NCBI GenBank assembly: GCA_002726205.1 | Contig: PBSL01000024.1 | Coordinates: 1-39,878 of the forward strand | From: Planctomycetaceae bacterium | GTDB lineage: Bacteria; Planctomycetota; Planctomycetia; Planctomycetales; Planctomycetaceae | Direction: 5' to 3' | DNA: 39,878 nt | Part shown: positions 10,042-39,878 of the stretch, one piece after another | Layout of the letters: each line of letters begins with the position of its first letter | Position numbering within the stretch: the first letter of the stretch is position 1 | Made by a program: the position numbers and the translations under genes | The notes under the pieces: generated by a model | Seen by the model: only the letters and a program-made list of their open reading frames with translations | What the model was told of the DNA's origin: nothing | Database searches by the model: none

Positions 10042-10048
10042 ATAGTAA

Positions 10049-13089: not shown

Positions 13090-13093
13090 TCGC

Positions 13094-14368: not shown

Positions 14369-14452
14369 TGGCAACCGGCGGTGCTGTCACCGGTGGACCG
14401 AGTTGGTTAGGATCCCGGATGTCCTGGAGACTCTCCCCCTGGTCCTGCACCG

Positions 14453-15319: not shown

Positions 15320-15321
15320 AT

Positions 15322-15336
15322 CGGGAGGCGCTCCCG
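15322..15336. other. Perfect 6-bp hairpin just after tyrA
   Basis: CGGGAGGCGCTCCCG begins two bases after the tyrA stop: six pairs, three-base loop. The bases after it are C-rich with no T-tract, so it is not a canonical intrinsic terminator. It may protect the 3' end of the tyrA message or separate tyrA from purL expression. Confidence 0.4.
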
Positions 15337-15367
15337 CCCCGTAGTCCCTCATGGTTGTGACCGGTCC

Positions 15368-18298
15368 ATGGATGGCATGCTCTGGGAAATTGAAGTCCAA
15401 CCCGCCCCCCGGGAAATCGATCGCGAAGCGGCCCGCGTCCTGGCCGCCAGCCGTGACCTGGGGATCACGACGGTCCGCGATATCCGTGCTGCCCGCAGTT
15501 TCCTGATCGAAACCGATGCCGCCGCGGAACAGGTCGCCGAGGCCGCCAGGGCCTTGCTGGTCGATCCGATCGTCGAGGAACACGCGATCCGCTCGCTGGG
15601 GAGCCCACCCGCTACGACAGGGTCGACCGACCAGGACCGACTGCTCAACGTCCTGTTCAAACCGGGAGTCACTGACAACGTCGCTAACAGCACACAAAAG
15701 GCGTTGGGCGAACTGGGATTGGACGTCGCCGCGGTCGCCACCTGTCGCAAGTACCGGGTGAACGTCGATGTCGATGTGGCCGACCTGGCCCGACTGGCCG
15801 AACGGGTGCTCTCCAACGAGGCTATCGAACACGTCGTCGAGGGTCCCCTGGCGATGGCCTCGATCGGCCTGGGCAGTGAATACCGGTTCAACCTGGAAAC
15901 GGTGCCGCTGAGACAGATGGACGACGAGGCTTTGTTGCGGCAAAGCCGTGAAGGACAGTTGTACCTCTCGCTGGAGGAAATGCAGACGATCCGCGATCAC
16001 TTCGCATCGCTTGATCGTGACCCGACCGATATCGAATTGGAAACCGTGGCACAGACCTGGAGTGAACACTGTTCCCATAAAACGCTGGCCGGTCGGATTC
16101 ACTATCGCGATGAATCGATCGATCGCCACTTCGAGAACATGTTGCGGGAGACGATCTTTGACGCGACGGCCTCGATTCGTGAAAAGCTGGGCGAGGCCGA
16201 CTGGTGCGTCAGTGTCTTCCGGGACAACGCCGGGGTGGTCACCTTCCACGACACGCTGGACGTCTGTTTCAAGGTCGAGACCCACAATCATCCCTCGGCA
16301 CTTGAACCTTACGGGGGCGCGAACACCGGAATCGGTGGCGTGATCCGTGATCCGCTGGGAACAGGACTGGGTGCGCGGCCGATCTGCAACACCGACGTTT
16401 TCTGCTTCGCTCCCCCCACGACCCCCGTCGAAGAACTGCCGCCCGGCGTCCTGCACCCCCGGGTGGTCACCCGGGGCGTCGTCTCCGGAGTCCGGGACTA
16501 CGGCAACCGCATGGGGATTCCCACCGTCAACGGGGCCATCTGTTTCGACCAACGCTACCTGGGCAATCCGCTGGTTTTCTGCGGCAACGTGGCGATGATC
16601 CCCATCGGACTCTCCGAGAAAGCGGCGCGACCAGGCGATCTGGTGGTTGCCGTCGGCGGCCGCACCGGTCGAGACGGCATCCACGGGGCCACCTTCTCGT
16701 CAGCGGAACTGACCGACGAAAGCGAGGAACTCTCGGGAGGCGCGGTGCAGATCGGCAACGCGATCACCGAGAAAATGGTCGTCGATGTCATTCTCGAGGC
16801 CCGCGACCGGAAACTCTATACCGCCATCACCGACTGTGGAGCCGGCGGCTTCAGCAGTGCCGTGGGTGAAATGGGCGAGGAATTGGGCGTCGAGGTCTGG
16901 TTGGATCGGGCACCGTTGAAATACGAGGGACTCTCCTACACCGAGATCTGGATTTCCGAGGCCCAGGAACGGATGGTCCTCGCCGTGCCACCCCAGCACT
17001 GGGAAGAATTCGAGGCGTTGTCCGCGTCCGAGGGTGTCGAGGCCGCGGTGATCGGCGAGTTCCAGGACACCGGCCGGCTCGTTCTGAAATACAACGATGT
17101 CCAGGTCGCCGACCTCGCGATGCAGTTCCTGCACGACGGCCGCCCCCCGGTCATCCGAGAAGCCGTCTACACACCACCGCGGTCACGGCCAATGCAATTG
17201 CCGGCCAAGGATCGCTGGGACGACGACCTGCGGGCCATCCTGGGTTCACTGAACGTCTGCAGCAAGGAATGGGTCATTCGGCAGTACGACCACGAGGTCC
17301 AGGCCGGAAGTGTCTTGAAGCCGCTCGTCGGCGCCGCCGACGATGGACCATCCGACGCCGCCGTCGTTCGGCCGGACCTGTCGTCCTCGCGGGGCCTGGT
17401 CGTCTCCTGTGGAATCAATCCTCATTACGGCGATCATGACCCCTACTGGATGGCGATCGCGGCCATCGACGAGGCCCTGCGAAACTGTGTCGCGACCGGT
17501 GCTGATCCGTCGAAAATCGCGATCCTCGACAATTTCTGCTGGGGAAACACCGATCGTCCCGAGACGCTGGGCAGCCTGGTTCGTGCAGCCCTGGGATGCC
17601 ATGACGCCGCCTTGGCCTTCGCGACGCCGTTTATCAGCGGCAAGGACAGTCTCAACAACGAATTCGCCTGGGACGACGACGAGCACAACCGCCAGAGTGT
17701 CGCCATCCCCTCGACATTGCTGATCAGTGCACTCGGCCAGATCGATGACATCACCCAGGTCGTCTCGATGGACCTCAAGCAACCCGGCAGCTGCCTGTTG
17801 CTGGTCGGCGAGACACGCGACGAGATGGGTGGCAGCCACCTCGGGCTGGTCAACGACCTCGACGGCGGAGACGTGCCCCGGGTCGATCTCGAGACCGCAC
17901 CAGCCATTCTTGCCCGGCTGCACGCGTCAATTGTCGCGGGGACCGTCCTGAGTTGTCATGATCTGAGCGAGGGAGGCCTGGCGGTCGCGGCGGCCGAGAT
18001 GGCCTTCGCCGGCCACTACGGAGCCTCGCTGGATCTCACCGAACTGGCCGCGAGCAGCCAGCTTGCCGATCCGGCCGTACTGCTGTTCTCGGAAAGTCCC
18101 ACGCGATTTCTGGTCGAGGTGGATCCCGCGGCCACGGCCGCGTTCCTGGACACGATGGCCGGTCAACCGGTTGTCGTGGTCGGATCGACCGACAGCGGTG
18201 ATCGACTCCAGGTCACCGCCGGCGACGGCCGGACACTCGTCGATGCCGACCTCGGAGACCTCAAGGCATGCTGGCAGGCCCCGCTGCAGTGGGACTGA
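15368..18298 (+). CDS. purL: Phosphoribosylformylglycinamidine synthase, PurS-dimer/PurL fusion without glutaminase
   Basis: 976 residues. This enzyme makes FGAM from FGAR, ATP and ammonia, the fourth step of purine synthesis. The N-terminus holds two PurS-like halves: about 5-75 ([18 protein letters not shown]) and about 95-165 ([20 protein letters not shown]). The catalytic core follows: TWSEHCSHK (230-238), [20 protein letters not shown] (302-321), then the second AIR-synthase-like half with [18 protein letters not shown] and SCHDLSEGG. The chain ends at [10 protein letters not shown], where full-length PurL enzymes such as that of E. coli continue into the glutaminase domain. Ammonia must therefore come from a separate PurQ, which is not in this window. 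Start at 15368; an in-frame ATG three codons later is equally possible. Family certain; architecture inferred from visible motifs. Confidence 0.95.
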
Positions 18299-18312
18299 CC
18301 GCAAGCCCTCGG

Positions 18313-18570
18313 TCAGGAATCCTCGTCGGAAGTTTCCTTGCCGGGTCGCTCCCCGCGGGACGAAACAATGCCGACCAGGACCAGCAGCAGGGCCGCATCA
18401 ACCAGCACGGCCAGCAGCGCGGCCAGCGAGATCACCCGCATGACGGTCGCAGCCGACTTGTCGTCAACGGCCGAGAGCACGCTTGCCAGCCCGGCAGCCA
18501 TCAGCATCGTCGCCAGGAAGATCCCACCCAGCCCCAGGCAACGCCGGATGGCTCGTTGCAGCCCACACAT
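18313..18570 (-). CDS. Small two-span membrane protein (85 aa)
   Basis: An 85-residue protein with two hydrophobic segments (about 13-33 and 45-69) separated by a short charged loop (VDDKSAATVMR), and an acidic hydrophilic C-terminus. A strong ribosome site (GGGAAGGGAG) lies just upstream of the ATG at 18570, which argues that this short frame is real. It converges on purL with 14 bases between the stops and is divergent from the Gfo/Idh gene. No family is recognised; it could be a small accessory membrane protein. Confidence 0.65.
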   Translation of the reverse strand: MCGLQRAIRRCLGLGGIFLATMLMAAGLASVLSAVDDKSAATVMRVISLAALLAVLVDAALLLVLVGIVSSRGERPGKETSDEDS

Positions 18571-26700: not shown

Positions 26701-27260
26701 GCGGATTCGAGCGAGTCGACCAGTGGCTGCAATCCCCCGGGCCGGCCCCGAACCTGCCGCAGCTTCCGGCCAGCAACATCTACGCCTTCACCGGGCTGGG
26801 TCCCCCCGGAGAAATCTCGATTCGCTCGATTTCCCAGTGGGGTCTGGTCCTCCTGGGAGCCGGGCTGGCCCTGGCCGCTGGACTGATCCTGCTCTACATC
26901 CCCCGGACACGACACGTCGTCTGCTTCCTGGCCAGCGGATTCGTGGTGGCGCTGTTGGCGATCTGGTTCGCTGAACCGATCGCACTGCTGCTGCAACCGG
27001 CCTTGCTGGGACTGACACTGGCCGGGCTGGCCACGCTGATCCACAACCGCTTCGGTCGACGTCCGTCGATCGAACTGCTTCCGCTGGCCACGCCGGAAGA
27101 CCGCCTGCCGGGATCGACAGGAGAACTGCAACTGTCAGCAATTGCCGCCGGCCCGGGTCCTCCTTCGACCATCCACGGCCACTCCTCCCAGCAGCCGCTC
27201 CGCTCTCCTGCCGAGCCGGTGGAAACCTCGGCTCCCTCGGAATCGGGGGTTCAGGAATGA
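23730..27260 (+). CDS. Giant secreted/membrane beta-rich protein of unknown function (1176 aa)
   Basis: I do not recognise this family. I place the start at the ATG at 23730 (MRIPSPRRVLRHPAGG), with AGG upstream; the frame is open earlier, but that part overlaps the preceding gene. A signal peptide with a hydrophobic core ends at ASA (31-33). Then comes a Pro-rich linker (about 36-80), then about 950 residues rich in alternating Val, Leu, Arg and Thr, the look of repeated beta-sandwich domains, for example LDGTVVDDRAVLDARVEIRV. Near the C-terminus are three hydrophobic segments (about 1036-1056, 1063-1081, 1084-1104) and a hydrophilic tail. So most of it should lie outside the cytoplasmic membrane, anchored at its C-terminal end. 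It overlaps the next gene by the 4 bases ATGA and appears to share modules with it. Confidence 0.85.
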   Translation: MRIPSPRRVLRHPAGGLWVLLPTCLIMLSAASAQTVAPPRERVAPGRSQAPAAPNVTQPPSKPATGPAKVPRPPDPSPTRTGGSWIFLPGPNGNIIPVPANLWKQFLKWQATQQTPPYHVTSVTLDGTVVDDRAVLDARVEIRVNRDDQWVPIALRMRTGNTVLLTPPVHKGNGQSRPDTQPNEPSQGLRWWLKGRGLHELSFRLSVPVLREHPRHRLTLALPTPAAAGTRLQLSIPGGPVRVTAADGRGHISRRTSENGTTRIEVHGFDDRIDLSWRSTAAAKSGDAVLASALAVVVEPATESIVLKAHQRVRILKGRLGTITVDLPEGFRLVDVQGDALQDPQVDPEEPGRVHLPLTDQETDVGSDPIEIRWTLQGDFPTAGRSLVLDGFNVERARYQTGHVAINLLDNYRSTKKLERFLHRINVGSLPRTPTLATLFGNNVASAWEILRQPFRLELDLLEIEPRFVAEPHLFLMLSESRAELIVDVPRAQVFRGAVDTLEFQWPDWTEQGWQIAADESPELLIRFDEKREILQVRLATRQTATDGRFSVRFKARRAITSAATVPVTLPTIQTPTPPHPVLVVGNAINVDTEFLSSDEADTRPLSARLKSMITLPDEFSDRIVPVDNYFRLSANTGQFQVRVMPQPRRVLTSSSVVASYSDRQLQVTQQIDYQVSYARVGSVKLMVPRPLQHERVRFRLQADSNSEPIPLGARPGVEVGTQRQAEIQLDEDRLGTFRILIDFDLPVPEALAITSVPVQVPLVQSTDTEFSSTRFELVESGGIQAVLPEGQWKSELDIENRPVWRAAGSKSQIDLTLRRSDLAASHHFTVPRVAIVQVIEDRDQGIAQAWACFQIRGDVTTLAVRFPATPRTLRPPSFSWDGQILAPDQSREITVTGGETEFRLDLSRFTPGPQHLLKVDYLLPGVWERGLVASKHDLVAPRLADTIHVAETLWQVHLPIGQHLFSGSRGHTPQFSWRWKSLHFGRTPTSGFERVDQWLQSPGPAPNLPQLPASNIYAFTGLGPPGEISIRSISQWGLVLLGAGLALAAGLILLYIPRTRHVVCFLASGFVVALLAIWFAEPIALLLQPALLGLTLAGLATLIHNRFGRRPSIELLPLATPEDRLPGSTGELQLSAIAAGPGPPSTIHGHSSQQPLRSPAEPVETSAPSESGVQE

Positions 27261-30200
27261 ACCGCAGCTGGCGGCAACCGATTTCCTGGTTTTTCGCCGG
27301 GCTGATGGTGCTGGGCGGCGAGGTTTCCCATGCGGCGGAACCGGGCCACTCGCCACGAGTGCTGACAGTCAATGATTCCAACCCCGCGGCCTGGCCGGTC
27401 GGCCCCTGGCAAGCCGTCCCGCGGCGCGAATACCTGGCACTGGTCGAAGCGCAATCACGAAAACTGGCCCAGCCCAAAATGGCGTGGATCCAGCACGCGG
27501 CTTACTCGGCCCGGCTCGATGGCAGCCGCCTGCACGGCGGGGAGCTGACGCTGCAGGTATTCAACAAGTCGACCGTGCCGGTCGCGGTGTCCCTGGACCC
27601 GTTGGGTTTGGCCGTCGAAACCCTGGTTCACAAGAAACGCGAGGCTCCCTGGGGCATCACCTCCGCAGGCCACGCCGTTCTGATCGTGCCACCGGGACCC
27701 AGCACCCACACCGGCCGCTGGTCCCTGTCAGGACGCACGGTCGCCTCGCTGCGTGAATTCAGCCTCTCGGTCGCCCCTGCGATCCTGACCACCTTCACGA
27801 TCGACGCCCCTTCCGGTCTCCGGCTCGAAACTTCCGACGGCAGGATCTCGCTTCCTGCCGCACCCGCTGCGGCAACCGACCAGCAACGCCGACGCTGGCA
27901 ACTGGCCCTGGGACGTCGAACACGGTGCCGTCTGCTTGTCACCCGCGACACCAAGGTTCCCCGGCAACCAGCGAGATTGCTGGTAAGAAATCGCACCAGT
28001 TGTGAAATCGGCACCGGGGGCGCGAGGATTGTCACTGAACTGGTCCTCGAGAGCCTGGGACGGCCGGTCCAACACCTGGTCCTGGCATTGCCACTCGATG
28101 CCCGTGTCGAGTCAATTCTCTATGACGGGCTCAGTGTCGAGAGTCGAAGAATCGATTCGTCCGGGCGACAGACCTGGCACATCACGTTACCGGACCCATT
28201 GCCTCACGCGGTTTCCGGCCCCGGCCGGGTGTTGCAGGTAACGGCCGAGTCTGATTTCAACCCCGCCTCCGACTGGTCACTTCCGTCAATCACCATCGTC
28301 GACAGTCAGGTTGTTGCCGGGGACCTGAAGGCACCGCAGCCGGACCTGACGCTCAACGTACGTGAGCCACTGGAACTCAAGACGTTCCAGGCAACCGGCT
28401 TTCGCCAGACGGCCGACGCGGTCGGTGGCCGACGATTGACGTTCTCACGTTTCACCGAACATCCGTCACTTCGTCTGCGACTCGGAGTGCCCCAGCAGTC
28501 TCTCACCGCCGACGTCCTGGCACGACTCGATCGTGGCCCGACCGGTTGGACCGCCGCGACCGAAATCGCCTGGATGGCCACGTCGGGAGCCTCCTACACT
28601 ACCCGGGCCCGCTTGGCACCGGGCTGGAACATCGTCGATCTCAAGCCCGTTGATCCCGCCACTCGCCTCGAGTGGCGATCCATCCTGGTGGCTGGAAATC
28701 GCCAGGAGCTGATCGTCGAGTGGTCCGATGCCGTTGACGCCACAACGGCACGCCCATTGCTGGTGCAATTGAAACGCCCCAGTGGTGACCTGACAGCCGA
28801 TGATCTACCGCTGATAGAACCGATCGACTGCGATCAGCACCGGATGCTCGTGGCATTGGTCTCACCCCTGGCCAACAAGCAACTGATCGCCGAGAACGGT
28901 GGCTCGTTGGTCCCGATCGGTCTCGAGAGCCTCGAGGAGCCCTGGCCGACGTTTTCCAGTTTCGACGCCGTGACAGAGGACATCGACGGTGGCCTGTTCC
29001 GCTGGTCGGCCACGACGGCGGCTCCCGACTCGCCCTCCCGCCCCGTGACCGGAAACCGCTCCACCGAGGCACCGGGAACCGAACCGGAGATCCCGGCATC
29101 TCCACCACAGTCCGTTGCCTCGGAAACGGAGGTAACCGCCGGGGAACAAACCGGTGCCACAGGTGTCGGCCACGCCGTCGCCATGCATTTGCAATCGCGG
29201 CTGGCCCCGTCAGGGGCTGACAGAGACCATCACGTCGCCCGAGTGACATTTGACGGAGCCGCGTTCCGCCGCCCCTTCCGATTCTCACTCGCCTCTCCCA
29301 ACGACCTGGATGTTGTACTTGTCAACGGCCAGGTCGCGCAGTCCGAGACCGATGGAAAGCTGATCTCGATTCCCCCCCTGGAACAGGGAACATTCCGGAC
29401 GATCGAGATTCGTTATACCGCTCCGGCCTCGAACGGGTTCCTGGCCAGCCAACGGACGATCCCGGTGCCCGGAATCGACGAAGACGTCTCCTTCACCTGG
29501 ATTGTCGCCGTTGCCCCGGGCCTGCTGACCGGCGACCAACCCGGCCAGCCCGGTCAATTCGATCATTCAATCCAGAACCACTGGAGTACACGCTGGCTGG
29601 GACCACTCGGCCGTGGCGGTCACGGCCAGGTCTTCAATCCGTTCTCGTTGGCCAACTGGCAGGACCTGTTCAAAGGAGCGACCGAAAAAACAACGGGGCT
29701 GGCATTCAATGCCGGCCTACCGGCCAACTGGAGCTCCTGGCGCCGGTTCGAGACCAGTTCACCCGAGCAACTCACCCTGACCCTGATCCGCCATGATCGA
29801 TTGACAGCCCTGGCCTGGCTGGTGTTCTTGTCCCTTCTGGGGGTGGGATTGCACGCCCGTGCCACCGACCAGTGGCCTTCCCCGCGATTCAGCGCAGTCG
29901 CGGTGGCCTCGCTTGTTCTCGTCGGCTGGTGGATCCCTGCTCCCTGGACACTGCTCACCGGGGCAGGCCTGGCAGCCATCCTGCTGGTGCTTCTGCTTCC
30001 CGAATCATTGTGGTGGTTTTCCCGGCGCACCGATCCGGCCTTGACCGCCACGTCGATCGGCTCATTCGAGAATGGTCCGCTCGGTTCGACCAGGACCTTC
30101 CAGAATTTTCCCCCTGCGGGTATCGGATTGCTCCTCGCGGCCGCCTGCTTCGGCCGCGCCATGGCACAGGACCCGCCCCAGGCGACACCGCCGGCAGCGG

Positions 30201-32860
30201 AGAAAAAGGCCGCGGCTCGACCCGATGTGCTGGTCCCGATCGACCGCCAGGGTCGGCCATCGCAGGAAATCCCGTTTGCCTTCGTCAGGCCGGCGTTGCT
30301 CGATACGCTGCGGCGAAACCAGCGCCTCGATGACGTGTCCCCCGCAGCCATTCTTCGCCGTGCCGACTACACCGGGACAGTCCACGCCGACGGCCGATTG
30401 GACCTCGCCGTCCGCTTCGAAGTGGTCGTAATGAGCCGGAAAGGGACAGTCCGACTGGCGCTGCCGGTTGACGGAGCGAACCTCGGACCCGACGCGTGCC
30501 ACGTCAACGGACAAAGACATCCACTGGTTCGCAGCGACCAGGGAACGTTTGAGCTGGCATTGCCTCCGTTCGCAGCTCCCGGAAAACCAGCCATTACACC
30601 AGCACCGTCCGCGGGTCGCATCGATCTGGTTGAACTCAACCTCCGCCCCACGGTCCGCCCGGCACCCAATGGAGGATTGATCGATCTGATGATTCCCGGA
30701 GTGCTCAACAGCCACCTGCACCTGGTCGTTCCCCGAAGCACAACCCGACTGGAAGTGCCCACGGCGATAGCATTGCCCTCTGCCGAGATGCCGAAACAGC
30801 GACGATTTCATCTGCCAGGGATTCGGCGTCTGCAGATCTCCTGGAGCAACAACCAGGAAACCCCACCCACGCCTCCCCGCACGACCGCCAGCGTACAGCC
30901 GTCCTGCCTGGTCGAAGTCCATCCGCTGGAAAGTCGGATCCAGTACCGGCTTCCGATCACCGTCAGTGGCGGCGACGTTTCGTTCGTCACCTTGATGCTG
31001 CCCAAGGAACTGATGTTCCGGCCCCGTGATATCCAGTCACCAGACCTTCTCGCCGTCAGGCCGCTGCCGGCTTCGAACTCCCGCCAACGGGTGATCGTCG
31101 AATTCAAGACGCCGCAAAAAAAGAAAATCGAGTTGAAGCTGACAGGTCGACTGCCGGTCAAAGCAAGCCGGAGTCGAATCGGACTGGCCCCGGCCCTGGA
31201 GATTTCTCATGGTACGCCGCCGGTTCCCGTCGTGGCCCGGCCATGGCAGCTGGGCGTCAGCCCGGCCGCGGGTTTCCGGATCGTTGCCGTCAGCCCTCTG
31301 CCAACGGGTATCACCGCGGCAGATGTCGGTGAATTCACACGAGTCTGGCAGGGTCCAGAATCCTCGAGCCCGGTCGCAACGCTCTCCTGGACCTTTAACC
31401 GTCCGCTGACTTTGCCACTTGACATCCACCCTCTCCAGCCCCGCCGGCAGGTCCGCCTCGAACAGTTCCTCCGTATCCGACCCGATCGAATGGAATTGAC
31501 CATCACCGCTTCGGCCAAGACCACCGGCTCCTCGGTCTTCCAACACAGCCTGCTAATCGACCCCCGCCTGAAGATCAACACGATCAGGATCCGGCAACGG
31601 GACGGCGCCGAACGGCTTGCACACAGCGCCCGTATCGGCAAGCGACTGGTGCTGTACCTCAAGGATGCCAACCGCTTCCAGGAAGAAATGCAGATCGGGA
31701 TACAGAACATCACCATCCGTGGCGAGTTGCCGCTTCAATTGCCCGGCAAGGTTATTCTGCCCGGCGTGACATTTGAAGACGCCGAGATCGACGAGAACAT
31801 GCTGAGCCTGTATCACCCCCCTCAACTGGGAGTCTCGCTGAACGGGGCCGTTCCACTGACGCAGCCCAGCGAGGATTCGATCGATTCCAGCCCGGCAGTT
31901 GACGCGCAGCAAGTCCTTGCAGGCCGTTTCACGCTGCCCGACAAGGAAACCCGGGTTGAACTCGACATTCGCCGCAAACGCCTGCCGTCACCATTGCAGC
32001 TGCTGTATCGCCTGGATCACCGGCCGATGGAAACAAACTGGCGGCTGCGGCTGATCGCCAAGTCAATGCCGGGCCCACTGGAGAAGGGGCCATTACGAAT
32101 CGAAATCGAGCCCGAACTGACGACGGCCAACACGGAAGATTCTCCGTTGGAATTCTCTCCAGCACCGGACACGCAGGTTCGTGACGACGATGGACGACTG
32201 GTGGCCCGGTACGAGAGCATCGACTCGGTAACACTCGACAGCACACTGGCTGCCGCCCCCGAATCCGGTAACTGGTCGGTTCCTCTGCCCCGGCTGGTTG
32301 AACGTGTCATCCGTTCGCGTTTCCTGCTTGTTTCGGCCAACGCCGATTGGCGACCCGTCGGCGATGTGACACGTCTTCCCCAACTGCCCAAGGACCTGTT
32401 CGACAAAGAGACCGAAGTCCAATCGCATGAGATGGTCTGGAGGATTGATGGTCCGAACTGGGAACTGGCCCGCCCCAGCACCCCGACCTCATCGACATCC
32501 CCTGCTGCCAAGCCCCAGGTCGCCAAGCCGCCTCCGGCCCGCACCCCCAGGCGGATCATCCAACCGGCCAAGCCACACAATCAACGCTCGCCCTGGTGGA
32601 TCACCCTGCAGGTTCTCGTTTCGATCACGTTCGCCGGCGTTATCGCCTGGGATCTCTCCCGCCCGCAGGATGCAAGTCTGCTCACCTGGTTGCGACGCCA
32701 TGACCCGGCCGCGTGGCTGGTGATCGGTTGCTGCTGGTGGCTGGGCGGGGTCGCCGGCGGGTTGGGCCTGTTGCTGATCACGATGACCCTGGCCCTGGTG
32801 ATCAGACGCGGCCGCCGCGGACAACACCGCCCGGCAACGATCCCACCGCTTGCCGGTTGA
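27257..32860 (+). CDS. Giant membrane-anchored two-module protein of unknown function (1867 aa)
   Basis: The start codon overlaps the preceding stop (ATGA), so translation is probably coupled. A signal peptide (about 8-27, ending SHAAE) is followed by a beta-rich region of about 820 residues with a Pro/Thr/Glu-rich spacer at about 595-636. Then come hydrophobic segments at about 850-868, 883-900 and 904-925. A second signal-like hydrophobic segment (about 954-970, GIGLLLAAACFGRAMAQ) opens another beta-rich region (about 1000-1760). This ends in a Pro/Ala/Lys linker and two more membrane segments (about 1780-1798 and 1818-1850). The chain thus looks like two copies of the architecture of the 1176-residue neighbour, fused. 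No enzyme motif is visible. It converges on the HtrA-like operon with 8 bases between stops. A structural or scaffold role in the envelope is a guess. Confidence 0.88.
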   Translation: MNRSWRQPISWFFAGLMVLGGEVSHAAEPGHSPRVLTVNDSNPAAWPVGPWQAVPRREYLALVEAQSRKLAQPKMAWIQHAAYSARLDGSRLHGGELTLQVFNKSTVPVAVSLDPLGLAVETLVHKKREAPWGITSAGHAVLIVPPGPSTHTGRWSLSGRTVASLREFSLSVAPAILTTFTIDAPSGLRLETSDGRISLPAAPAAATDQQRRRWQLALGRRTRCRLLVTRDTKVPRQPARLLVRNRTSCEIGTGGARIVTELVLESLGRPVQHLVLALPLDARVESILYDGLSVESRRIDSSGRQTWHITLPDPLPHAVSGPGRVLQVTAESDFNPASDWSLPSITIVDSQVVAGDLKAPQPDLTLNVREPLELKTFQATGFRQTADAVGGRRLTFSRFTEHPSLRLRLGVPQQSLTADVLARLDRGPTGWTAATEIAWMATSGASYTTRARLAPGWNIVDLKPVDPATRLEWRSILVAGNRQELIVEWSDAVDATTARPLLVQLKRPSGDLTADDLPLIEPIDCDQHRMLVALVSPLANKQLIAENGGSLVPIGLESLEEPWPTFSSFDAVTEDIDGGLFRWSATTAAPDSPSRPVTGNRSTEAPGTEPEIPASPPQSVASETEVTAGEQTGATGVGHAVAMHLQSRLAPSGADRDHHVARVTFDGAAFRRPFRFSLASPNDLDVVLVNGQVAQSETDGKLISIPPLEQGTFRTIEIRYTAPASNGFLASQRTIPVPGIDEDVSFTWIVAVAPGLLTGDQPGQPGQFDHSIQNHWSTRWLGPLGRGGHGQVFNPFSLANWQDLFKGATEKTTGLAFNAGLPANWSSWRRFETSSPEQLTLTLIRHDRLTALAWLVFLSLLGVGLHARATDQWPSPRFSAVAVASLVLVGWWIPAPWTLLTGAGLAAILLVLLLPESLWWFSRRTDPALTATSIGSFENGPLGSTRTFQNFPPAGIGLLLAAACFGRAMAQDPPQATPPAAEKKAAARPDVLVPIDRQGRPSQEIPFAFVRPALLDTLRRNQRLDDVSPAAILRRADYTGTVHADGRLDLAVRFEVVVMSRKGTVRLALPVDGANLGPDACHVNGQRHPLVRSDQGTFELALPPFAAPGKPAITPAPSAGRIDLVELNLRPTVRPAPNGGLIDLMIPGVLNSHLHLVVPRSTTRLEVPTAIALPSAEMPKQRRFHLPGIRRLQISWSNNQETPPTPPRTTASVQPSCLVEVHPLESRIQYRLPITVSGGDVSFVTLMLPKELMFRPRDIQSPDLLAVRPLPASNSRQRVIVEFKTPQKKKIELKLTGRLPVKASRSRIGLAPALEISHGTPPVPVVARPWQLGVSPAAGFRIVAVSPLPTGITAADVGEFTRVWQGPESSSPVATLSWTFNRPLTLPLDIHPLQPRRQVRLEQFLRIRPDRMELTITASAKTTGSSVFQHSLLIDPRLKINTIRIRQRDGAERLAHSARIGKRLVLYLKDANRFQEEMQIGIQNITIRGELPLQLPGKVILPGVTFEDAEIDENMLSLYHPPQLGVSLNGAVPLTQPSEDSIDSSPAVDAQQVLAGRFTLPDKETRVELDIRRKRLPSPLQLLYRLDHRPMETNWRLRLIAKSMPGPLEKGPLRIEIEPELTTANTEDSPLEFSPAPDTQVRDDDGRLVARYESIDSVTLDSTLAAAPESGNWSVPLPRLVERVIRSRFLLVSANADWRPVGDVTRLPQLPKDLFDKETEVQSHEMVWRIDGPNWELARPSTPTSSTSPAAKPQVAKPPPARTPRRIIQPAKPHNQRSPWWITLQVLVSITFAGVIAWDLSRPQDASLLTWLRRHDPAAWLVIGCCWWLGGVAGGLGLLLITMTLALVIRRGRRGQHRPATIPPLAG

Positions 32861-32868: not shown

Positions 32869-34851
32869 CTAGATGCGATCGAGCAGATCGATCCAACGAC
32901 CCATCGCATCGATCACCGGCACCGGTGGATAATTGTGTCCGTCACCGGCCACCGGCGTCAGGGTCACCGGGTACTTCATCGTCTCCAGGCGAGCCCGACT
33001 CTTCTGGACCAGGCCGAAGAGGTTGTCCTTGTCGCCGCACGAGAGAAAGAATTGCAGACGAAGCTCCGGTCGATTCTCCGGTGGTGACAACCTCAATGGT
33101 TCCGACGAGACCGCGACACCGCGGAACAGCGAGCGATATCTGAAGGCCAGGTGGTAGCCGAAGCGGGCACCATCGGAATAGCTGTGCAGCACGATCCGTC
33201 GACCGTCGATCCGGTACCGCTTCTGCATCTCCTGGACCAGCGCCTCGACAAACCCTGCCTCACCCAGGTTCCAACCGCTGACCTTCTTTGCCCGGGGGCC
33301 GACCAGGATCAGGCCCCGTTCCTCACAAATCGGCTTCCACAGGTCGTGGATGTCAGCCTCCATCGTATCCCCTCCCGGATGAATCCAGACGACCAGGCCA
33401 TAACCATGTGCCGGGTTGTAGGTCTCGGGGACGTAGGCCCAGAAATTGTGGTTGTGTCCGGCAAGATCTTCGCTGATTCGCCCTGTCCCGGGCAGGTTGG
33501 CCGGCTTCGGTTCCGGTGCCGCGATGATCGCTGACTCGATAATCGCCGGCACGGTCGGGGGGATTCCCGACAGCGTCGCCGTCAACGTCTGCCGCGCCTC
33601 ACGTCGTTCCACCTGCACCTTCACCGTTTCGCCGATCCTGTGGCGACTGATGATGTCCAACAGACCGGCGACATCGGCAACGGCCGTCCCGTCCACTCGC
33701 ACCACTCGATCACCGGGCAGTAATTTGGCCTGCGACGCTGGACTTTCAGGAAGAATTCCCCGCACGGTGACTCCCACGGTCTTGTCACCCACGAGACGCC
33801 GACGGGGAAGGATCCCCAGATAGGCTGGAGCGTAGGGTTCAAGTTTTCCGACAAGCTGGATCTGCTGATCGACTTTCTTGTCACCTCGCCGCACGACGAC
33901 CTTGATCGTCTCACCCGCGTACTTGTTTCCCAACGCGTGGCGAACCTGGACCAACCGAGAAATCTCGCGACCATCGATTGAAGCGATCACGTCGCCAGGC
34001 TTCATCCCGGACTTTTCCGCGGGCGAGTTGAAGCGGACTCGATCGATCACCGCGGCGACCGCGTAGACGTCACCCCTCTTCAACGTGATCCCCATCAAAC
34101 CGGGCAGAAGATCCTCTCCCGTCTTCAGACGTGGCAGTGTCGAGAGAATATCGACCATCGGAATCGCAAATCCTATTCCCGAGTCATACCATTCCACTCC
34201 GGCAGTCTGCCCCGACTGGCGCTGTGAAAGTGGCACGAGAACGCCGATCACTCGTCCTTGAATATCGACGAGGGGTCCACCGTAATTCGCCGGTGAGATC
34301 TTGGCGTCGGTCTGAACGGCACGGCCCCAGACCCGGTCCAGTGCACTGAGGATCCCGACCGAGAGATTCGGGAGCGGGCTGTCGTAGGTGCGTCCCAGCG
34401 CGATCGCCCATTGTCCCACCCGGAAGTTCTTCCGCGGTACCGGCGAAACCGTCGACAGTCCGTCGGCGGCGATCTTCAGCAAGGTCAACATCCGGGCTCG
34501 ATCGTTGGCAACGATCTTCGCCGGGAATCGACGTCCATCCGCGAGGGTCACGAGCACCGAAGCCGGCTTGGAGATGAAATTGAACGCGCTGGAAATGACA
34601 AATCCATCCGCCGACACGACCAGACCGGTCGTGGCTCCGGTCCCAGTCAGCGTGCGGCCGACACGGTCAAGACCACCAACCGTCTGGATCCGAACCACCG
34701 ACGGGGCCACGTTGACTGCCGCTGCCTTGAACGCCTGTTCTTCCTTCGTTTCGAGATCGGCAGGGGCCTGGCCGTGAACCACCGCCCCGCCCACCGCCAG
34801 CACGACCAGCATCGTCCCGATCCGCCGTGCCATGCTCTGGCTCCAGGTCAT
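32869..34851 (-). CDS. Pseudoprotease HtrA-like domain, two PDZ domains and C-terminal esterase
   Basis: 660 residues with a signal peptide (about 10-28). Residues about 35-240 align with the trypsin-like fold of HtrA/DegP, but all three catalytic positions are changed. Where active HtrA has His the segment ADGFVISSAFNF has Phe90, where it has Asp NDRARMLTLLKI has Met121, and where it has Ser SPANYGGPL has Tyr190. PDZ-like domains follow at about 245-325 (SPAEKSGMKPGDVIASIDGR) and 335-415 (SPASQAKLLPGDRVVRVDGT). The last 220 residues are an alpha/beta hydrolase of the esterase/PHB-depolymerase kind: IHPGGDT oxyanion region, LHSYSDGARFG nucleophile region, CGDKDN and GDGHNYP for the Asp and His. 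The protease part is then a folded, non-cleaving module delivering an esterase. Start and preceding stop overlap (ATGA). Confidence 0.88.
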   Translation of the reverse strand: MTWSQSMARRIGTMLVVLAVGGAVVHGQAPADLETKEEQAFKAAAVNVAPSVVRIQTVGGLDRVGRTLTGTGATTGLVVSADGFVISSAFNFISKPASVLVTLADGRRFPAKIVANDRARMLTLLKIAADGLSTVSPVPRKNFRVGQWAIALGRTYDSPLPNLSVGILSALDRVWGRAVQTDAKISPANYGGPLVDIQGRVIGVLVPLSQRQSGQTAGVEWYDSGIGFAIPMVDILSTLPRLKTGEDLLPGLMGITLKRGDVYAVAAVIDRVRFNSPAEKSGMKPGDVIASIDGREISRLVQVRHALGNKYAGETIKVVVRRGDKKVDQQIQLVGKLEPYAPAYLGILPRRRLVGDKTVGVTVRGILPESPASQAKLLPGDRVVRVDGTAVADVAGLLDIISRHRIGETVKVQVERREARQTLTATLSGIPPTVPAIIESAIIAAPEPKPANLPGTGRISEDLAGHNHNFWAYVPETYNPAHGYGLVVWIHPGGDTMEADIHDLWKPICEERGLILVGPRAKKVSGWNLGEAGFVEALVQEMQKRYRIDGRRIVLHSYSDGARFGYHLAFRYRSLFRGVAVSSEPLRLSPPENRPELRLQFFLSCGDKDNLFGLVQKSRARLETMKYPVTLTPVAGDGHNYPPVPVIDAMGRWIDLLDRI

Positions 34852-35903
34852 CGTGACTTCTCTCCGGATGGTGTTGAACTTTTTGCGGGAACAGGAAGTT
34901 CCGCCGGGACGAGCCGGTCGCCACGCCGGACGGTCAATTTCAGAACCCCGCCGGCCTCCAACCGTCCCAGCCGCTGTTTGAGTACACGACAGGACTGGAT
35001 CAGGTCCCCGTTGACGAACAACACCAGGTCGTCGGGTTGCAGTCCGGCCCGAGCCGCGGCGGATCCAGGTTGCACGCGATCGACAAACGCGGGTGTCCGA
35101 AACAACACATCGGGAACGAGGACCAACCCGAAATCCAGCGGCCGAAATCGAGCCACCTCGTCAACTCCCTCGGGTTCCCGCTGACGCGCCCGGTACCGCC
35201 CGGCGATAATTTCCTCGATCGGTTTCCTGATCTCGGAAATCGGCACGGCATAATTGACCCAGGTATTGGTTTCGGCGTTGCGAAGTTCCTTGCCGATCAT
35301 CCCCAGCAAACGGCCTCCACGAGTCGTCAAAACACCACCACCGGCACCCGGGTTGTTGGTCACCGCATCCACGATGAACGCGGTCCCCTCGTAGGCAGTC
35401 TCGAACGATCCCCGGCGAGTTGCCAGGGGGGCCTTCGTTGCCACCACGCCGTGCAACACCGAGACCTTTTCATCGCCGGTGGCGACCTTGAACATGTTGC
35501 TGAATCCCAGGACACGGGTTCCCGGGCCGGCATCGCCGCTGTCGCTGGCAAGATTCCAGGCGGGGAGCTCGAGACCATCGGCCTTCAACTGCAGGACGGC
35601 GAGATCCAGTTGTGGTTCGGCGCCCAGGACCTTGGCGGAAATCCTGCGACCGTCGGCAAGCACGACGGTCAACTCATCGGTGTCAAGCACATGGCTCCAG
35701 ACAGTCGCCACATGACCGGTCGGTGAAACCAGGAATCCGGTGCTGTAGGCATGCAAGCGTCGGATTCCACCGGCACCAAAGACCTTGACCATCCGTGACT
35801 GGACGCGTTGGATCGTCGAGTGGATCGACTGTGCCACCGCGGCACCCGGACCGGTCAATTCCAGCAAGGCCAGGCCGAACAGAACCAGGATTCTCACTCT
35901 CAC
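34848..35903 (-). CDS. HtrA-like protein with PDZ domain, catalytic Ser replaced
   Basis: 351 residues with a signal peptide ending near AVAQ (22-25). The trypsin-like domain (about 30-230) keeps the His (His71 in VWSHVLD) and the Asp (Asp100 in PQLDLAVLQL). The Ser loop, NPGNSGGPL in active enzymes, reads NPGAGGGVL, putting Gly188 at the nucleophile. One PDZ-like domain follows (about 255-335; GSAAARAGLQPDDLVLFVNG). The GTG start at 35903 has AGGAG 8 bases upstream and overlaps the previous stop as GTGA. The protein should be periplasmic and unable to cleave peptides by the usual mechanism; it may bind substrates or regulate the active homolog encoded just before it. Family assignment is firm, inactivity is inferred from the residue change. 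Confidence 0.9.
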   Translation of the reverse strand: MRVRILVLFGLALLELTGPGAAVAQSIHSTIQRVQSRMVKVFGAGGIRRLHAYSTGFLVSPTGHVATVWSHVLDTDELTVVLADGRRISAKVLGAEPQLDLAVLQLKADGLELPAWNLASDSGDAGPGTRVLGFSNMFKVATGDEKVSVLHGVVATKAPLATRRGSFETAYEGTAFIVDAVTNNPGAGGGVLTTRGGRLLGMIGKELRNAETNTWVNYAVPISEIRKPIEEIIAGRYRARQREPEGVDEVARFRPLDFGLVLVPDVLFRTPAFVDRVQPGSAAARAGLQPDDLVLFVNGDLIQSCRVLKQRLGRLEAGGVLKLTVRRGDRLVPAELPVPAKSSTPSGEKSR

Positions 35904-37654
35904 CGGGTAGTCTCCTGTTTCATCTGGACCGACTCGATGCGGAAAACGCCAATCGGTCGGCCCGCAGAGCTGACCTGGATCGTCTTCGGCCAGTGCCTGC
36001 CGTCCCGAACCACATCTCCCTGGAACCGCAACTCACATTCGTCGGTGTCTTCCTCGCGCTGGAAATCGAATCCCAGCAACTGTCCGTCTTTTTGACCGAA
36101 GTACCAGCGGCAACGGGCATTGCCCAATTCCGTGATCATCACATCAACCCGGTTCCCCGTCCCGTCGAGCGGTTCGCTGCCAAGATAATGGAACGTGCCG
36201 AAACCCTTTTCACGCTTCACCAGAAACGTCTTCCACTGGTGAACGGCGTACAAGAGACCGCCACTCCCGGACGGTTCGTCAACCGGGTCTCCCTTGTCGA
36301 GGGGTTGAAAGAACGCCTTGTCTTTCCAGTCCAGGCCGGCTCCGCTCTTGCCCAGCGTGAACTGGTAGGGCTCACCGGCGACCGTCTTGCCCGCCAGCAC
36401 CCATTTTTCCGCCAGGCCGGAAAAATCACCCAGCCGGGCCAGGCCGACCAGTGTCCGTTTCTGCTGCTGCAGGTTGAAGTAGTAGTTGGCAAACCCGGGT
36501 TTCTTGACATGAAGGTGCTTGTACTTCTCGGGTGGCTTGGCCGTGGGAGCCTTGCGGCTGGGCCTGCGTTTTGGAGACCCGGGCCGGGGCTTGGGTCTTG
36601 GGGAGCCCGGCCGCGGCCTGGCCTTGGGAGTTCCGGTCAACTCGCTGTCACGGTGCAGGCCCCTCAGACGCAGCAGGGCCGTGGTCCGCACCTGGTCCCT
36701 GCGAAAGACGAGCGGCAGTTTCCAGCCCTTGGGATAAATCCCCAGGATGTTCTTGAACTGGTTGACGCTGCGAATTGGACGACCGGCCAACGAGACGATT
36801 TCATCTCCTTTACGAAGCCCCCGCCGGAAGGCCTCCGAGGCATCCAGGATCCCATCCACGACAACGGCACCGTCTTCCCGGGTGGAAACAGTCGCCCCCA
36901 GGGTCGCATGATCGACGATCCGACCGCTGCGAAGATGATCCATGAAGAGCTTGATCTGATTGATCGAGATGGCATATCCGGCACCCGAGTTGACTCGACC
37001 ACGCTTCTCGAATGATCCACGGCCATTGATGCCGACAAGCAACCCCGTGCCGGAGAACAGGGGACCACCGGAATTCCCGGGATTGATCGAGGCATCGACC
37101 TGGATGCAATCGGTGTACTCGAGAATGGTCCCGGCGGGGTACTGGTAACGATGAAGTCCGCTGACGATCCCGTAGGTCACCGTCGGATGAAAGTCGGTTG
37201 CCAGCAGGAACGGGTTGCCCATGGCAAACGTCCAGTCACCGACCCGCAACGCGTCACTGTTTCCGAGTGTTGCATGGGGAAAGTCGTCGCGTCCGAGGAG
37301 CTTGATCAACGCAACGTCGCCGGTCGGATCATTCCCCACGATCACGGCATCGTAGAGACGACCGTCGTTGAGCCCGCACTTCATGAACGTGCCAGCCCCA
37401 CGCGTCACGTGGAAGTTCGTCAACGCGTAGCCATCGGCGGTGATCAGAACACCTGACCCGCCCCCACGGCCCCCCCGAGCAAAAATTGCCACCACCGTCG
37501 GCGCAACACGCGAAACAACAGCGACACGGGCCTGTTCGGCAGCGAGCACGGCAGGATCAACCGCCCCGGCCGGCCGGGCTATCCAGGTCGTCGCCAGCAG
37601 TACCAGCAGCAGCCCCCGGCCCAGGCCGTGATTGCTCCCGTTTCCCAGACTCAC
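35900..37654 (-). CDS. HtrA/DegP-like serine protease with PDZ and extra C-terminal domain
   Basis: 584 residues with a signal peptide (about 13-31). The catalytic triad is complete: His82 (LTNFHVT), Asp113 (PTGDVALIKL) and Ser195 (NPGNSGGPL). A PDZ domain follows (about 255-330; LRKGDEIVSLAGRPI). A basic Pro/Arg/Ser linker (about 345-385) leads to a C-terminal domain of about 200 residues (NYYFNLQQQKRTLVGLARLG onward) that I do not recognise; it resembles no second PDZ. The GTG start at 37654 has AGGAGAGG upstream. It is 11 bases after the NPCBM gene and overlaps the next HtrA-like gene by GTGA. It is the only HtrA of the three with an intact active site, so it is the likely working protease of the group, in the periplasm. 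Confidence 0.93.
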   Translation of the reverse strand: MSLGNGSNHGLGRGLLLVLLATTWIARPAGAVDPAVLAAEQARVAVVSRVAPTVVAIFARGGRGGGSGVLITADGYALTNFHVTRGAGTFMKCGLNDGRLYDAVIVGNDPTGDVALIKLLGRDDFPHATLGNSDALRVGDWTFAMGNPFLLATDFHPTVTYGIVSGLHRYQYPAGTILEYTDCIQVDASINPGNSGGPLFSGTGLLVGINGRGSFEKRGRVNSGAGYAISINQIKLFMDHLRSGRIVDHATLGATVSTREDGAVVVDGILDASEAFRRGLRKGDEIVSLAGRPIRSVNQFKNILGIYPKGWKLPLVFRRDQVRTTALLRLRGLHRDSELTGTPKARPRPGSPRPKPRPGSPKRRPSRKAPTAKPPEKYKHLHVKKPGFANYYFNLQQQKRTLVGLARLGDFSGLAEKWVLAGKTVAGEPYQFTLGKSGAGLDWKDKAFFQPLDKGDPVDEPSGSGGLLYAVHQWKTFLVKREKGFGTFHYLGSEPLDGTGNRVDVMITELGNARCRWYFGQKDGQLLGFDFQREEDTDECELRFQGDVVRDGRHWPKTIQVSSAGRPIGVFRIESVQMKQETTR

Positions 37655-37665: not shown

Positions 37666-38904
37666 TTACCGGACCAACTTGGCGTCGGCCAAGTCAAGAT
37701 GATCGGCGATGTCCAAGTCGCCCCCGTAATCAACAAGAATCTGCAGCTCCCTGAGGCCCGTTACGTCGAGATCGACCAGCCGAGGTTTCTCGGTGCCCTT
37801 CACGTCGGCTTCAAGAAGTTTCTTACCATCGGCAGAGATCACGACGTGGACATTGCCCCGCCGTCCAACCAACGCGTCGATGCCCATCCAGGCCTGGAAC
37901 CGGCGATGGCGACGGGCCAGTGAGTAAACCAAACGGGTCTTCGAATGCAGGGCAAGCCCCCGTGCAAACGTCTTTCCGTTCACCCGAAGTGGCCCACCAT
38001 CGAGGTTGGTGTCACGACGGTATTTCCAGGTGACATCGAAATACGGGGTGTACTCGATGTCACGCGGGACGAGCGCCGAGAGATATACAACACGGCTGGC
38101 GGCAAAATCCAACCTCTCCAGACGTGCGAACGGCAGTTTCACCTGTTGACCGCCTTCCAGCGTGGCCTGACATATGGCCGCTCGCATCGAGACCGCGGAC
38201 AAAGCCAGCGTGTCACCGCCCCGCAGAACCGCCTGGCAGGCGGCGGGCTTCGACCTGGCGACATTCCTGAAGAACAGGATCCCAAAGACACGTTCACGTG
38301 GTACCGGAAGTTCGTCGCCATCAAGCAGGAACTTGACGACCTTCGCATCGATCTCGCCAACCACACCGTCGAGATGATCCAGGACATTGCCCTTGCGGAT
38401 CACCAACCGATCCCGCTTGATCTCACGGCCACGCAATTCATTCCACGCATCGGCAACCGCCGCATCGAGGGTCCCGAGACGAACCGTCGCCACACGACCG
38501 GCCGGCAGCGTGACATCGCCAAGGTGCTGCGTCTGGACCTGAACCTGACGAGGAGTCGCCGTCAGCGTCCGGCAACTGATTCGGCCACCATCGACAAGCC
38601 TCACCCAGGCCCTGGTCTTGACCACCGGCGTCTTCGGGTTTTGCACCGGGGTCTTCGCCGCCGGAAACCGAACATCCAACAGATCGGCCGCACGAATCTC
38701 GATCGGTCCTTTCGGTCCCTGGAGAGTCACACCCGACTCACTGAGACTCACCAACTGGCCGGTGATCCGTCGACCAGCCAGAACATGGCCACCGCTGGTA
38801 GCTACCGGTTGCGGTTGCCCCTGCAGCGTCAATACTTCGACCGTTCCCTCCGCCGAACCAACGCCAGTCAGAACCAGCGTCAACAGCAATGCCAATCGTC
38901 GCAT
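37666..38904 (-). CDS. NPCBM-domain exported protein
   Basis: 412 residues with a signal peptide (about 1-20, ending GSAEG). The middle consists of short beta-rich repeats that each begin like LVDGGRISCRTLTATPRQVQ and CQAVLRGGDTLALSAVSM, resembling repeated small barrels. The C-terminal 130 residues match the NPCBM (novel putative carbohydrate-binding module) family: DGGPLRVNGKTFARGLALHS, then a region ending GGDLDIADHLDLADAKLV. NPCBM domains bind sugars in glycosidases; no glycosidase domain is present here. A GGAG site lies upstream of the ATG at 38904. The gene is 35 bases after the coiled-coil gene and 11 before the active HtrA gene, so it belongs to the operon. It may tether the system to an envelope polysaccharide; that is inference. 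Confidence 0.9.
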   Translation of the reverse strand: MRRLALLLTLVLTGVGSAEGTVEVLTLQGQPQPVATSGGHVLAGRRITGQLVSLSESGVTLQGPKGPIEIRAADLLDVRFPAAKTPVQNPKTPVVKTRAWVRLVDGGRISCRTLTATPRQVQVQTQHLGDVTLPAGRVATVRLGTLDAAVADAWNELRGREIKRDRLVIRKGNVLDHLDGVVGEIDAKVVKFLLDGDELPVPRERVFGILFFRNVARSKPAACQAVLRGGDTLALSAVSMRAAICQATLEGGQQVKLPFARLERLDFAASRVVYLSALVPRDIEYTPYFDVTWKYRRDTNLDGGPLRVNGKTFARGLALHSKTRLVYSLARRHRRFQAWMGIDALVGRRGNVHVVISADGKKLLEADVKGTEKPRLVDLDVTGLRELQILVDYGGDLDIADHLDLADAKLVR

Positions 38905-38939: not shown

Positions 38940-39878
38940 TCAGCGATTACGTCCAGTGGCCAGATCGCGTGCCGCACGCTGGATGCGTGACTGCCGACGC
39001 GACAACTCCCTCAATTGCGACAACACTTCCCGGTCGCGAGCCTGCTCACCATCGATCAGCCGAGCAAGCCGCCGGGTCCGTCGGTTGATCCGCAACTGGA
39101 GTGCCCTCAGCATCTTCAGCTCAGACAACTGATCGACCAGCGGCGGCTCCTGCTGTTGTTGCTGCTGCTGCTGCTGTTGCTGTTGCTGCTGTTGCTGCTT
39201 GTCCTCGGACTTCTCCAGCTCCTTCTGCAACGCCTCGATCATCTCCTCGAGGGCCTCGATGATGTCCTTCTCGATCGCCCGCGTCAGCTGACCGACCTTC
39301 GACTGCTCCAGACGTCTCGACACCGTCAACATGTCTTCACGCAGTTCAATGACTGCCTCGGGGAATGCCACCGACGAACCTTCTTCCTTCAGCAGCGTCA
39401 GGCTCTTCACCGCCTCGACGGCAATCTCCTCCTCGTCGCGCGCCAACTTGATCGACTGAGTCGTATGGCGACCAATCCAATTGTCCTCGGAAACCTGACC
39501 AAGAGTGATCGTGCTCTGATAAACCGCCAACTGCATGGCCAACATCTTCTGAAATCTCGCCTCCAGGGCCGCAAGCATCAACTTGCGTTCCTCTTCCCGA
39601 AGCTGTCGAAGAATCTCCTCGAGTTTCTCCTTCGCCTTGATCAGGTTCTTCAACGCCTCGTCCTGATGGTCTGACGCCTTGTCCCGTGATTTCTTCTTCA
39701 ACTCCTCAATCGCACGCTCCATCTCCTGACGAGCCCGCTCGATCTCGTCACGGCCTGGAGTCTTTTGTTCGTTCTGCTGGGACTGTTCCTGGCTCTTGCC
39801 GTCCTTACTCTTGCCGTCCTTGCTCTTGCCGTCCTTGCTCTTGCCGTCCTTGCTCTTGCCGTCCTTGCTCTTGCCGTC
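38940..39878 (-). CDS. Coiled-coil Gln/Lys/Glu-rich protein (partial, N-terminus missing)
   Basis: The frame has no stop up to the right edge, so the 5' end lies outside the window. The visible end, in order, is: Lys-Asp-Gly-Lys-Ser pentapeptide repeats, a Gln/Glu-rich linker, and a long charged helix (from [11 protein letters not shown] on) with the heptad pattern of a coiled coil. Next come a middle part with the segment [20 protein letters not shown], a second charged helix, 16 consecutive Gln, and a C-terminal helix ([20 protein letters not shown]). The last motif recurs in planctomycete membrane-associated coiled-coil proteins, as far as I recall. No enzymatic motif is visible. It heads the visible part of the operon with the NPCBM and HtrA-like genes and could be its scaffold. 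An N-terminal membrane anchor is possible but not seen. Confidence 0.8.
39150..39197. repeat. Trinucleotide run coding for 16 glutamines
   Basis: Sixteen consecutive CTG or TTG triplets on the plus strand read as CAG or CAA (Gln) on the minus strand within the coiled-coil gene. CAG and CAA are mixed, which lowers slippage compared with a pure run. Confidence 0.95.
39793..39878. repeat. 15-bp tandem repeat (5.7 copies), coding for Lys-Asp-Gly-Lys-Ser units
   Basis: Units of CTCTTGCCGTCCTTG starting at 39793, 39808, 39823, 39838, 39853 and 39868; the first differs by one base (A for G at its end) and the last is cut by the window edge. The array continues the open frame of the coiled-coil gene, so it encodes a repeated basic/polar pentapeptide. 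Its full length is unknown. Confidence 0.95.

Follow-up and report, generated by a model that had tools for sequence, protein, structure and literature searches.

Three consecutive genes in contig PBSL01000024.1 of a Planctomycetaceae bacterium (assembly GCA_002726205.1; all 39,878 nucleotides of the contig were analysed and are called the window here) encode HtrA-like proteins, H1, H2 and H3. H1 has an intact protease site, while H2 and H3 are predicted from their sequences to be HtrA-fold pseudoproteases without a normal serine-protease site, and not proteases. The trio is a real, old and selected system, a three-membered variant on the known pairing of active and inactive HtrA proteins in which one active protease has two dead paralogues as its fixed companions across many planctomycete families. 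Its genes and their junctions are as follows.

35900..37654, minus strand: H1, 584 amino acids (aa), GTG start; active HtrA-type protease
34848..35903, minus strand: H2, 351 aa, GTG start; predicted HtrA-fold pseudoprotease with one PDZ domain
32869..34851, minus strand: H3, 660 aa, ATG start; predicted HtrA-fold pseudoprotease with two PDZ domains
35900..35903, minus strand: GTGA overlap of the H1 stop and H2 start, with AGGAG 8 bases before the GTG
34848..34851, minus strand: ATGA overlap of the H2 stop and H3 start, with GGAG 10 bases before the ATG

The locus had been described in an earlier annotation made by eye (the sequence-only reading) as three consecutive genes with 4-base overlaps at both junctions, and the minus-strand open reading frames (ORFs) with their GTGA and ATGA overlaps confirm this. 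All three proteins match the Pfam family Trypsin_2 above its cut-off (E = 4.9e-29 for H1, 3.3e-16 for H2 and 5.2e-21 for H3). PDZ families score above cut-off in H2 and H3 and slightly under it in H1 (25.4 against 27 bits, and 22 against 23.2 bits). The combination of Trypsin_2 and PDZ domains is shared with DegP, DegQ, DegS and other HtrA (S1C) proteases, and the best matches of our profiles in the PDB are of the DegP/DegQ type (H2 with a DegP-like chain, E = 1.5e-39; H3 with DegP, E = 1.4e-51). The N-termini of all three proteins resemble signal peptides when judged by eye, and export to the periplasm is presumed.

Alignment bore out the residues assigned to H1 (His82, Asp113 and Ser195) and to H3 (Phe90, Met121 and Tyr190). 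H1 has the His-Asp-Ser triad and Gly193 of the HtrA/Deg (S1C) family; H2 and H3 lack the triad and differ from DegP, DegQ and DegS in having no serine-protease site. H2 had been read as retaining Asp100 and a catalytic His71, with Gly188 in place of Ser. Asp100 and Gly188 stand, but the His does not. The sequence-only reading had itself proposed a comparison with DegP-type structures, and in profile alignments with solved DegP-like, DegQ and Protease DO chains, which are ungapped around the site, the catalytic-His column falls on Ser70 and His71 lies at +1. A combined hidden Markov model (HMM) reads Ser-Asp-Gly for H2 of the window, in the same register as the structure alignments, and a catalytic His71 is ruled out by the two together. 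By this alignment H2 has lost two of the three triad residues, keeping only Asp100. The proposed stepwise loss of the triad survives as a count (0, 2 and 3 residues lost in H1, H2 and H3), but it had been built in part on the mis-registered His of H2. In H3 of the window, the former nucleophile lies in the motif QTDAKxSPxNYGG, with Ala at oxyanion position 193; D182, S186, N189, Y190, Y222 and D223 are invariant in H3, forming a dense invariant run around the former nucleophile.

Conservation of these sites was assessed at two levels. The search covered 39 relatives in addition to the window's genome; a locus was fetched from 33 of them (34 stretches, two from one genome), and the other 6 gave paralogue-level matches only. 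In first alignments of the fetched stretches, with the window included, the triad was intact in 32 of 32 H1 domains, Tyr replaced the nucleophile in 28 of 28 H3 domains, and Ser was present in none of the 34 H2 domains with a residue at that position. A deduplicated census combined these stretches with 80 named loci, the best 80 of 560 found in a scan of contigs, and with 35 further stretches selected among phylum-level matches; identical domains were removed, score thresholds were applied and domains shorter than 120 residues were excluded. The titles of the 80 loci name planctomycetes, except for two styled only 'bacterium' (L109 and L130).

In the census, Asp, Ser and Gly193 are present in all 96 H1 domains and His in 95, the remaining one not being aligned at that position. 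Among 103 H2 domains, Ser is found at the nucleophile position in 0 of the 102 that have a residue there (Ala 57, Gly 19, Gln 9, Pro 7, Phe 4, Tyr 4, Glu 1, Asp 1; one gap). Their His position is occupied by Ser in 81, Asn in 11, Gly in 6, His in 2, Gln in 2 and Thr in 1; the Asp is kept in 48 of 103, and Gly193 in 102 of the 102 with a residue. H3 is more uniform at its former nucleophile: all 123 domains have Tyr there, all 123 have Asn194, and none has Gly193. The trio therefore recurs in planctomycete genomes with its substitutions conserved, and intact triads in orthologous H2 or H3, which the sequence-only reading had named as the sign of recent decay, were found in no domain above the score thresholds. 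Below the census threshold, and uncounted, were 21 of 343 deduplicated domains, 5 of them His-Asp-Ser (H-D-S) and 16 degenerate. A very diverged H3 (L184:5515-7665), likewise below threshold, has SSAFYGG in place of SPxNYGG, with the Tyr still there.

As a control, other HtrA paralogues were hand-picked, not drawn at random, from the relatives' genome matches, and 19 of 20 are H-D-S. So are 7 of the 9 additional trypsin-like ORFs of the genome to which the window belongs; one of the remaining two has Asp and Ser with its His outside the alignment, and the other is degenerate and adjoins an H-D-S ORF. Degeneracy outside the trio is rare, not absent. A second active/dead neighbour pair lies in the window's genome on contig C72 at about 13000-18500 (L239, L247), where a 366-aa trypsin-like ORF (H-D-S) stands beside a 389-aa ORF that reads Ser-Asp and has, in a stretch of its own, a Cys in place of the Ser (CGGPL).

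Gene order was scored in the 131 loci with a counted domain. H1, H2 and H3 follow one another in 88, comprising 83 listed as 1-2-3, four listed as 2-1-3 (fused H1-H2 ORFs) and one listed as 1-3-2 (overlapping stop-to-stop ORFs). The other 43 have H3 alone (28), H1-H2 (6), H2-H3 (6), H2 alone (2) or H1 alone (1), some of them cut by contig ends, and some loci may be missing domains here because identical ones had been removed. The overlaps in the window had been taken to imply coupled, near-equal synthesis of the three proteins. Such coupling is not essential: a 1- or 4-base overlap is possible at only 34 of 88 H1-H2 and 31 of 89 H2-H3 junctions, even under a nearest-start rule that favours overlaps, and a number of relatives carry H3 away from H1-H2. 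With H3 so placed, the operon does not enforce a 1:1:1 ratio. Strict translational coupling as the key to the system is weakened by the same genomes.

Five genomes (L173, L174, L177, L178 and L186, from families f89, f51 and f46) have H1 and H2 fused in one uninterrupted ORF, in which an intact H1 domain is followed 300-400 residues on by an H2 domain. Co-occurrence of the three genes was followed in 20 genomes, which were chosen and not random, and it holds in 19. In five genomes of the window's family with no H3 seen beside H2, H3 was found elsewhere along with H1 and H2 in 5 of 5, with its Tyr in 5 of 5. In ten more genomes with H3 apart, a single H1 ortholog is accompanied by a strong H2 match in 10 of 10 (one H2 is partial, and one genome has a second, weak H2-profile match), and in four of five genomes picked for having no clear trio all three genes are absent. 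The fusions, and co-occurrence with a distant H3, argue for joint function. Together with the census, they support the proposal that one active protease and two pseudoproteases are retained together.

The system extends well beyond the nearest relatives. In a set of 392 genomes from the phylum, H3 matches reach E = 2.2e-116 or better in 38 and lie at 1.2e-110 to 1.1e-78 in 29 more; by our own count of the rows listed, these make up 67 genomes in 19 families. According to the kinship column of the table, 28 of the 29 second-tier genomes lie outside the window's class. The locus was fetched from 21 of the 29, and 19 have H1, H2 and H3 at one locus; one of the other two, cut by a contig end, shows H2 and H3, and the last has only H3 at that place. 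In a quick tree of 85 trypsin domains reaching beyond the window's class, H1, H2 and H3 each occupy one side of a branch with SH-aLRT support of 99. Distant clusters are divided in the same tree, intact members falling with H1 (90) and dead members on the H3 (94) and H2 (85) sides. This suggests, tentatively, with support below 95 and long branches, that the three lineages separated early. HtrA-like genes also occur in remoter groups of two or three, at L191, L192, L193, L195, L196, L197 and L198. The members beside the H-D-S one (none was seen in L193) are degenerate, with N-N-T, R-G-F, F-D-S, N-N-F, F-D-V, T-E-D, S-E-E, S-R-Y and other combinations, and the stretches fetched for these clusters contain no match to NPCBM, D4175 or MoxR, the neighbours of the trio described below.

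Pairwise dN/dS was computed for the window and its three nearest relatives, giving rough ratios of 0.07-0.14 for H1 (6 pairs), 0.05-0.09 for H2 (3 of 6 pairs; the three with L079 were not computed, there being an N in the sequence) and 0.09-0.12 for H3 (6 pairs). In the closest pair, L077-L078 (dS 0.3-0.4), the ratios are 0.07, 0.05 and 0.09, respectively. All three genes are under purifying selection, H2 and H3 about as strongly as H1. Loss of triad residues, taken by itself, is what would be expected if H2 and H3 were functionless, decaying duplicates of H1, but this explanation is very improbable in the face of such selection, of a single replacement residue, Tyr, fixed in 123 of 123 H3 domains, of the retention of H2 and H3 in families outside the window's class, and of the co-occurrence of the three genes. 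Recent decay in particular is ruled out by the census, dN/dS and co-occurrence. The triad substitutions of H2 and H3 are old and selected.

Two of the proteins extend beyond their PDZ domains. After Trypsin_2, H1 has one PDZ domain, a Pro-rich linker and a LolA/LolB-like C-terminal domain (approximately residues 376-584). AlphaFold2 models this domain with a pLDDT of 93.8, and its best Foldseek match is a LolA-superfamily domain (E = 6.7e-5, TMq 0.51). A search of the PDB with the C-terminal sequence profile gave nothing useful (best E = 1.2), and Pfam matches are scattered over single members (DUF4292 in 2 of 21, DUF6287 in 1 of 21 and LolB in 1 of 21). In the DegS-RseB envelope-stress module, an HtrA protease is linked to a LolA-fold protein. 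RseB is a weak Foldseek match to the H1 domain (E = 1e-2, TMq 0.22); in H1 the LolA/LolB-like domain is in one chain with the protease, and the likeness is of fold only. H3 ends in a different module.

32872..33534, minus strand: H3 C-terminal alpha/beta-hydrolase domain, feruloyl-esterase-like; Pfam Esterase_PHB, E = 2e-4, below cut-off

Its AlphaFold2 model (pLDDT 94.1) best matches the feruloyl esterase 8jh8 in Foldseek (E = 1.4e-12, TMq 0.74). An esterase Ser-Asp-His is readable in the window; among 65 aligned members it is complete in 7, and the nucleophile Ser is present in 9. With all three residues in only 7 of 65, an active esterase is unsupported as a conserved trait of H3, and H3 is therefore mostly a pseudoprotease joined to a pseudo-esterase. 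We know of no place for either C-terminal domain in the usual HtrA architecture.

On balance, we consider it probable that H1 is an exported HtrA/Deg protease and that H2 and H3 are its obligate non-catalytic paralogues, acting as regulators, substrate adaptors or structural subunits. H1 would cut, and H2 and H3 would serve as its obligate partners. HtrA proteases act as trimers, and the simplest physical form would therefore be a mixed oligomer of one cutting subunit and two dead ones. Among known HtrA proteases, homo-oligomers of active subunits predominate. PMC3640471, which agrees with trimeric action, shows Deg5 as a trimer and Deg8 as a hexamer. Within such an assembly, H2 would be the closer partner of H1, and H3 would contribute two PDZ domains and an alpha/beta-hydrolase module for binding or sensing. 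The LolA/LolB-like domain of H1 and the neighbouring MoxR/BatA-type cluster would point to a function in quality control or stress of the cell envelope. The data show the domain families, the loss of the active sites and its conservation, purifying selection, synteny, the H1-H2 fusions and co-occurrence in the genomes examined; from these we infer export, a physical complex, its stoichiometry, a regulatory role and a role in envelope stress.

A more specific form of this scheme is offered tentatively, as a possibility we hold with some doubt: H1, H2 and H3 would form an asymmetric ring that cuts at one site only, and the two old dead paralogues would hold the assembly fixed, control access to the active site and sense signals by way of PDZ, alpha/beta-hydrolase and LolA-like modules, the whole being inherited in many Planctomycetota families and coupled to MoxR/VWA machinery. 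The H1-H2 fusions would favour a mixed ring. In ClpP/ClpR and similar systems, an active protease subunit is assembled with catalytically dead paralogues; the proposed logic is the same and the fold unrelated, assembly of the HtrA trio being a proposal only. If the three proteins do assemble together, HtrA would become a further case of a protease that combines active with dead subunits. With natural H1-H2 fusions and a compact operon at hand, such joint assembly can be tested directly.

Several observations count against the partnership of H1, H2 and H3 as proposed. H3 lies apart from H1-H2 in the relatives mentioned above, and the fusions join H1 with H2 only, no H3 fusion being present among the loci of the order count. 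One genome (G036, locus L062) has an H2-like gene and no H1 or H3 orthologues, and another (G020) has an H3 match without the C-terminal domain. In the wider H3-like lineage Tyr is not universal: only 2 of 10 weaker domains that match best with H3 have it, and one weaker H3-like domain (F-D-S) retains both Asp and Ser. The evidence from selection is affected as well, since dS exceeds 1 in most pairs and those dN/dS ratios are rough. Finally, in a study of magnetotactic bacteria, MamO is a pseudoprotease required for MamE-dependent proteolysis, and no physical interaction with MamE was detected (PMC4794232); by analogy, pseudoprotease partners need not be subunits.

MamE and MamO are the closest parallel. 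Like the trio, they comprise an active HtrA-type protease and an HtrA-fold pseudoprotease from the same gene island, according to the same study (PMC4794232), in which a residue other than Gly at position 193 is held to prevent formation of the oxyanion hole in MamO. Non-Gly193 is common to MamO and H3 (Gly in 0 of 123), whereas H2 has Gly in 102 of 102. MamE/MamO is a pair, in contrast to a trio spread over many families. In MamO, a transporter domain of the TauE type is accompanied by a di-His metal site (PMC4794232). No Pfam match to a TauE-like transporter domain was found in H2 or H3, which differ from MamO in carrying PDZ domains, with an alpha/beta-hydrolase in H3 as well, and in having NPCBM and MoxR/BatA-type genes as neighbours.

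The same comparison bears on two other explanations. In the first, H2 and H3 would assist H1 from outside its oligomer: each would form a homo-oligomer of its own and serve in the periplasm as a chaperone or PDZ adaptor by which substrates are held or presented. PDZ domains are retained in H2 and H3, some genomes encode H3 at another site, and MamO promotes MamE-dependent proteolysis without detected contact (PMC4794232), so that separate chaperone or adaptor roles are a serious rival to a mixed ring. We nonetheless regard them as rather unlikely: by implication of the H1-H2 fusions, at least these two proteins act next to each other, and a Tyr conserved in 123 of 123 H3 domains suggests more than a holding surface. 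In the second, the dead pockets have been repurposed, and the former active site of H2, H3 or both would now serve ligand binding or a new chemistry. The dense invariant residues around the former nucleophile of H3 would fit, and there is precedent in MamO, reported to have been repurposed for metal binding (PMC4794232). Conserved loop residues are equally explicable as structural, however, and no match suggests a ligand or an activity, which makes this an improbable account of the trio.

The sequence-only reading knew of no earlier description of a coupled series of this kind. In the titles and abstract openings of the open-licence PubMed Central papers listed, we found no description of an HtrA trio or pseudoprotease in planctomycetes, and the bacterial HtrA pseudoproteases we found in print are the single partners in magnetotactic bacteria (PMC4794232). 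Novelty is limited to the trio, since active/pseudo pairs such as MamE/MamO and others are known and arose several times in magnetotactic bacteria (PMC4794232).

Upstream of H1, the window contains two further genes of the cluster.

37666..38904, minus strand: NPCBM/NEW2-domain protein, directly upstream of H1; PF08305, E = 4e-30; a conserved neighbour
38940..39878, minus strand: 'D4175' gene, cut off by the end of the contig; its Gln-rich product matches DUF4175 weakly (E = 0.0017, under the cut-off)

The order D4175-NPCBM-H1-H2-H3 was found in most of the 34 stretches. The H2-like gene at L062, the exception to co-occurrence, also adjoins NPCBM and D4175. Upstream of D4175 in relatives, a gene designated p824 is matched in 12 of 12 genomes and a MoxR-DUF58-BatA-VWA series in 8 of 12. 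In Pfam searches of one cluster set, these gave AAA_3 and bpMoxR, DUF58, and BatA with VWA_2, with VWA below cut-off, and p824 had no match. The arrangement varies: in L033, MoxR-DUF58-BatA lies in opposite orientation beside NPCBM, and in L171, MoxR and DUF58 stand between NPCBM and H1. In the window's own genome, MoxR-DUF58-BatA-VWA-p824 is found at the end of contig C75. About 250 bases beyond p824 this contig stops, just as a new signal-peptide-like gene is starting. The window ends within the D4175 gene in a tandem GACGGCAAGAGCAAG repeat (39790-39878), with a poly-Gln tract at approximately 39150-39200. The tandem GACGGCAAGAGCAAG repeat is probably the cause of the assembly break. Because C75 ends past p824 and the window ends inside the D4175 repeat, the cluster is probably interrupted between them by an assembly gap. 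In Riemerella anatipestifer, MoxR affects expression of the bat operon and resistance to thermal and oxidative stress (PMC11834572). If our proposal is true, the MoxR/BatA-type cluster of planctomycetes gains a proteolytic output.

Elsewhere in the window, a 1867-aa protein with no Pfam match is encoded at 27257-32860 on the plus strand, convergent with H3, and weak relatives of it (21-24% identity) lie near H3 in L036 and L064. Two other very large plus-strand ORFs, at 3607-7818 (1403 aa) and 7912-11328 (1138 aa), have no Pfam match. Adjoining DUF1549/DUF1553 and DUF1501 genes occupy 11470-14368 on the plus strand, a gene pair that is common in planctomycetes.

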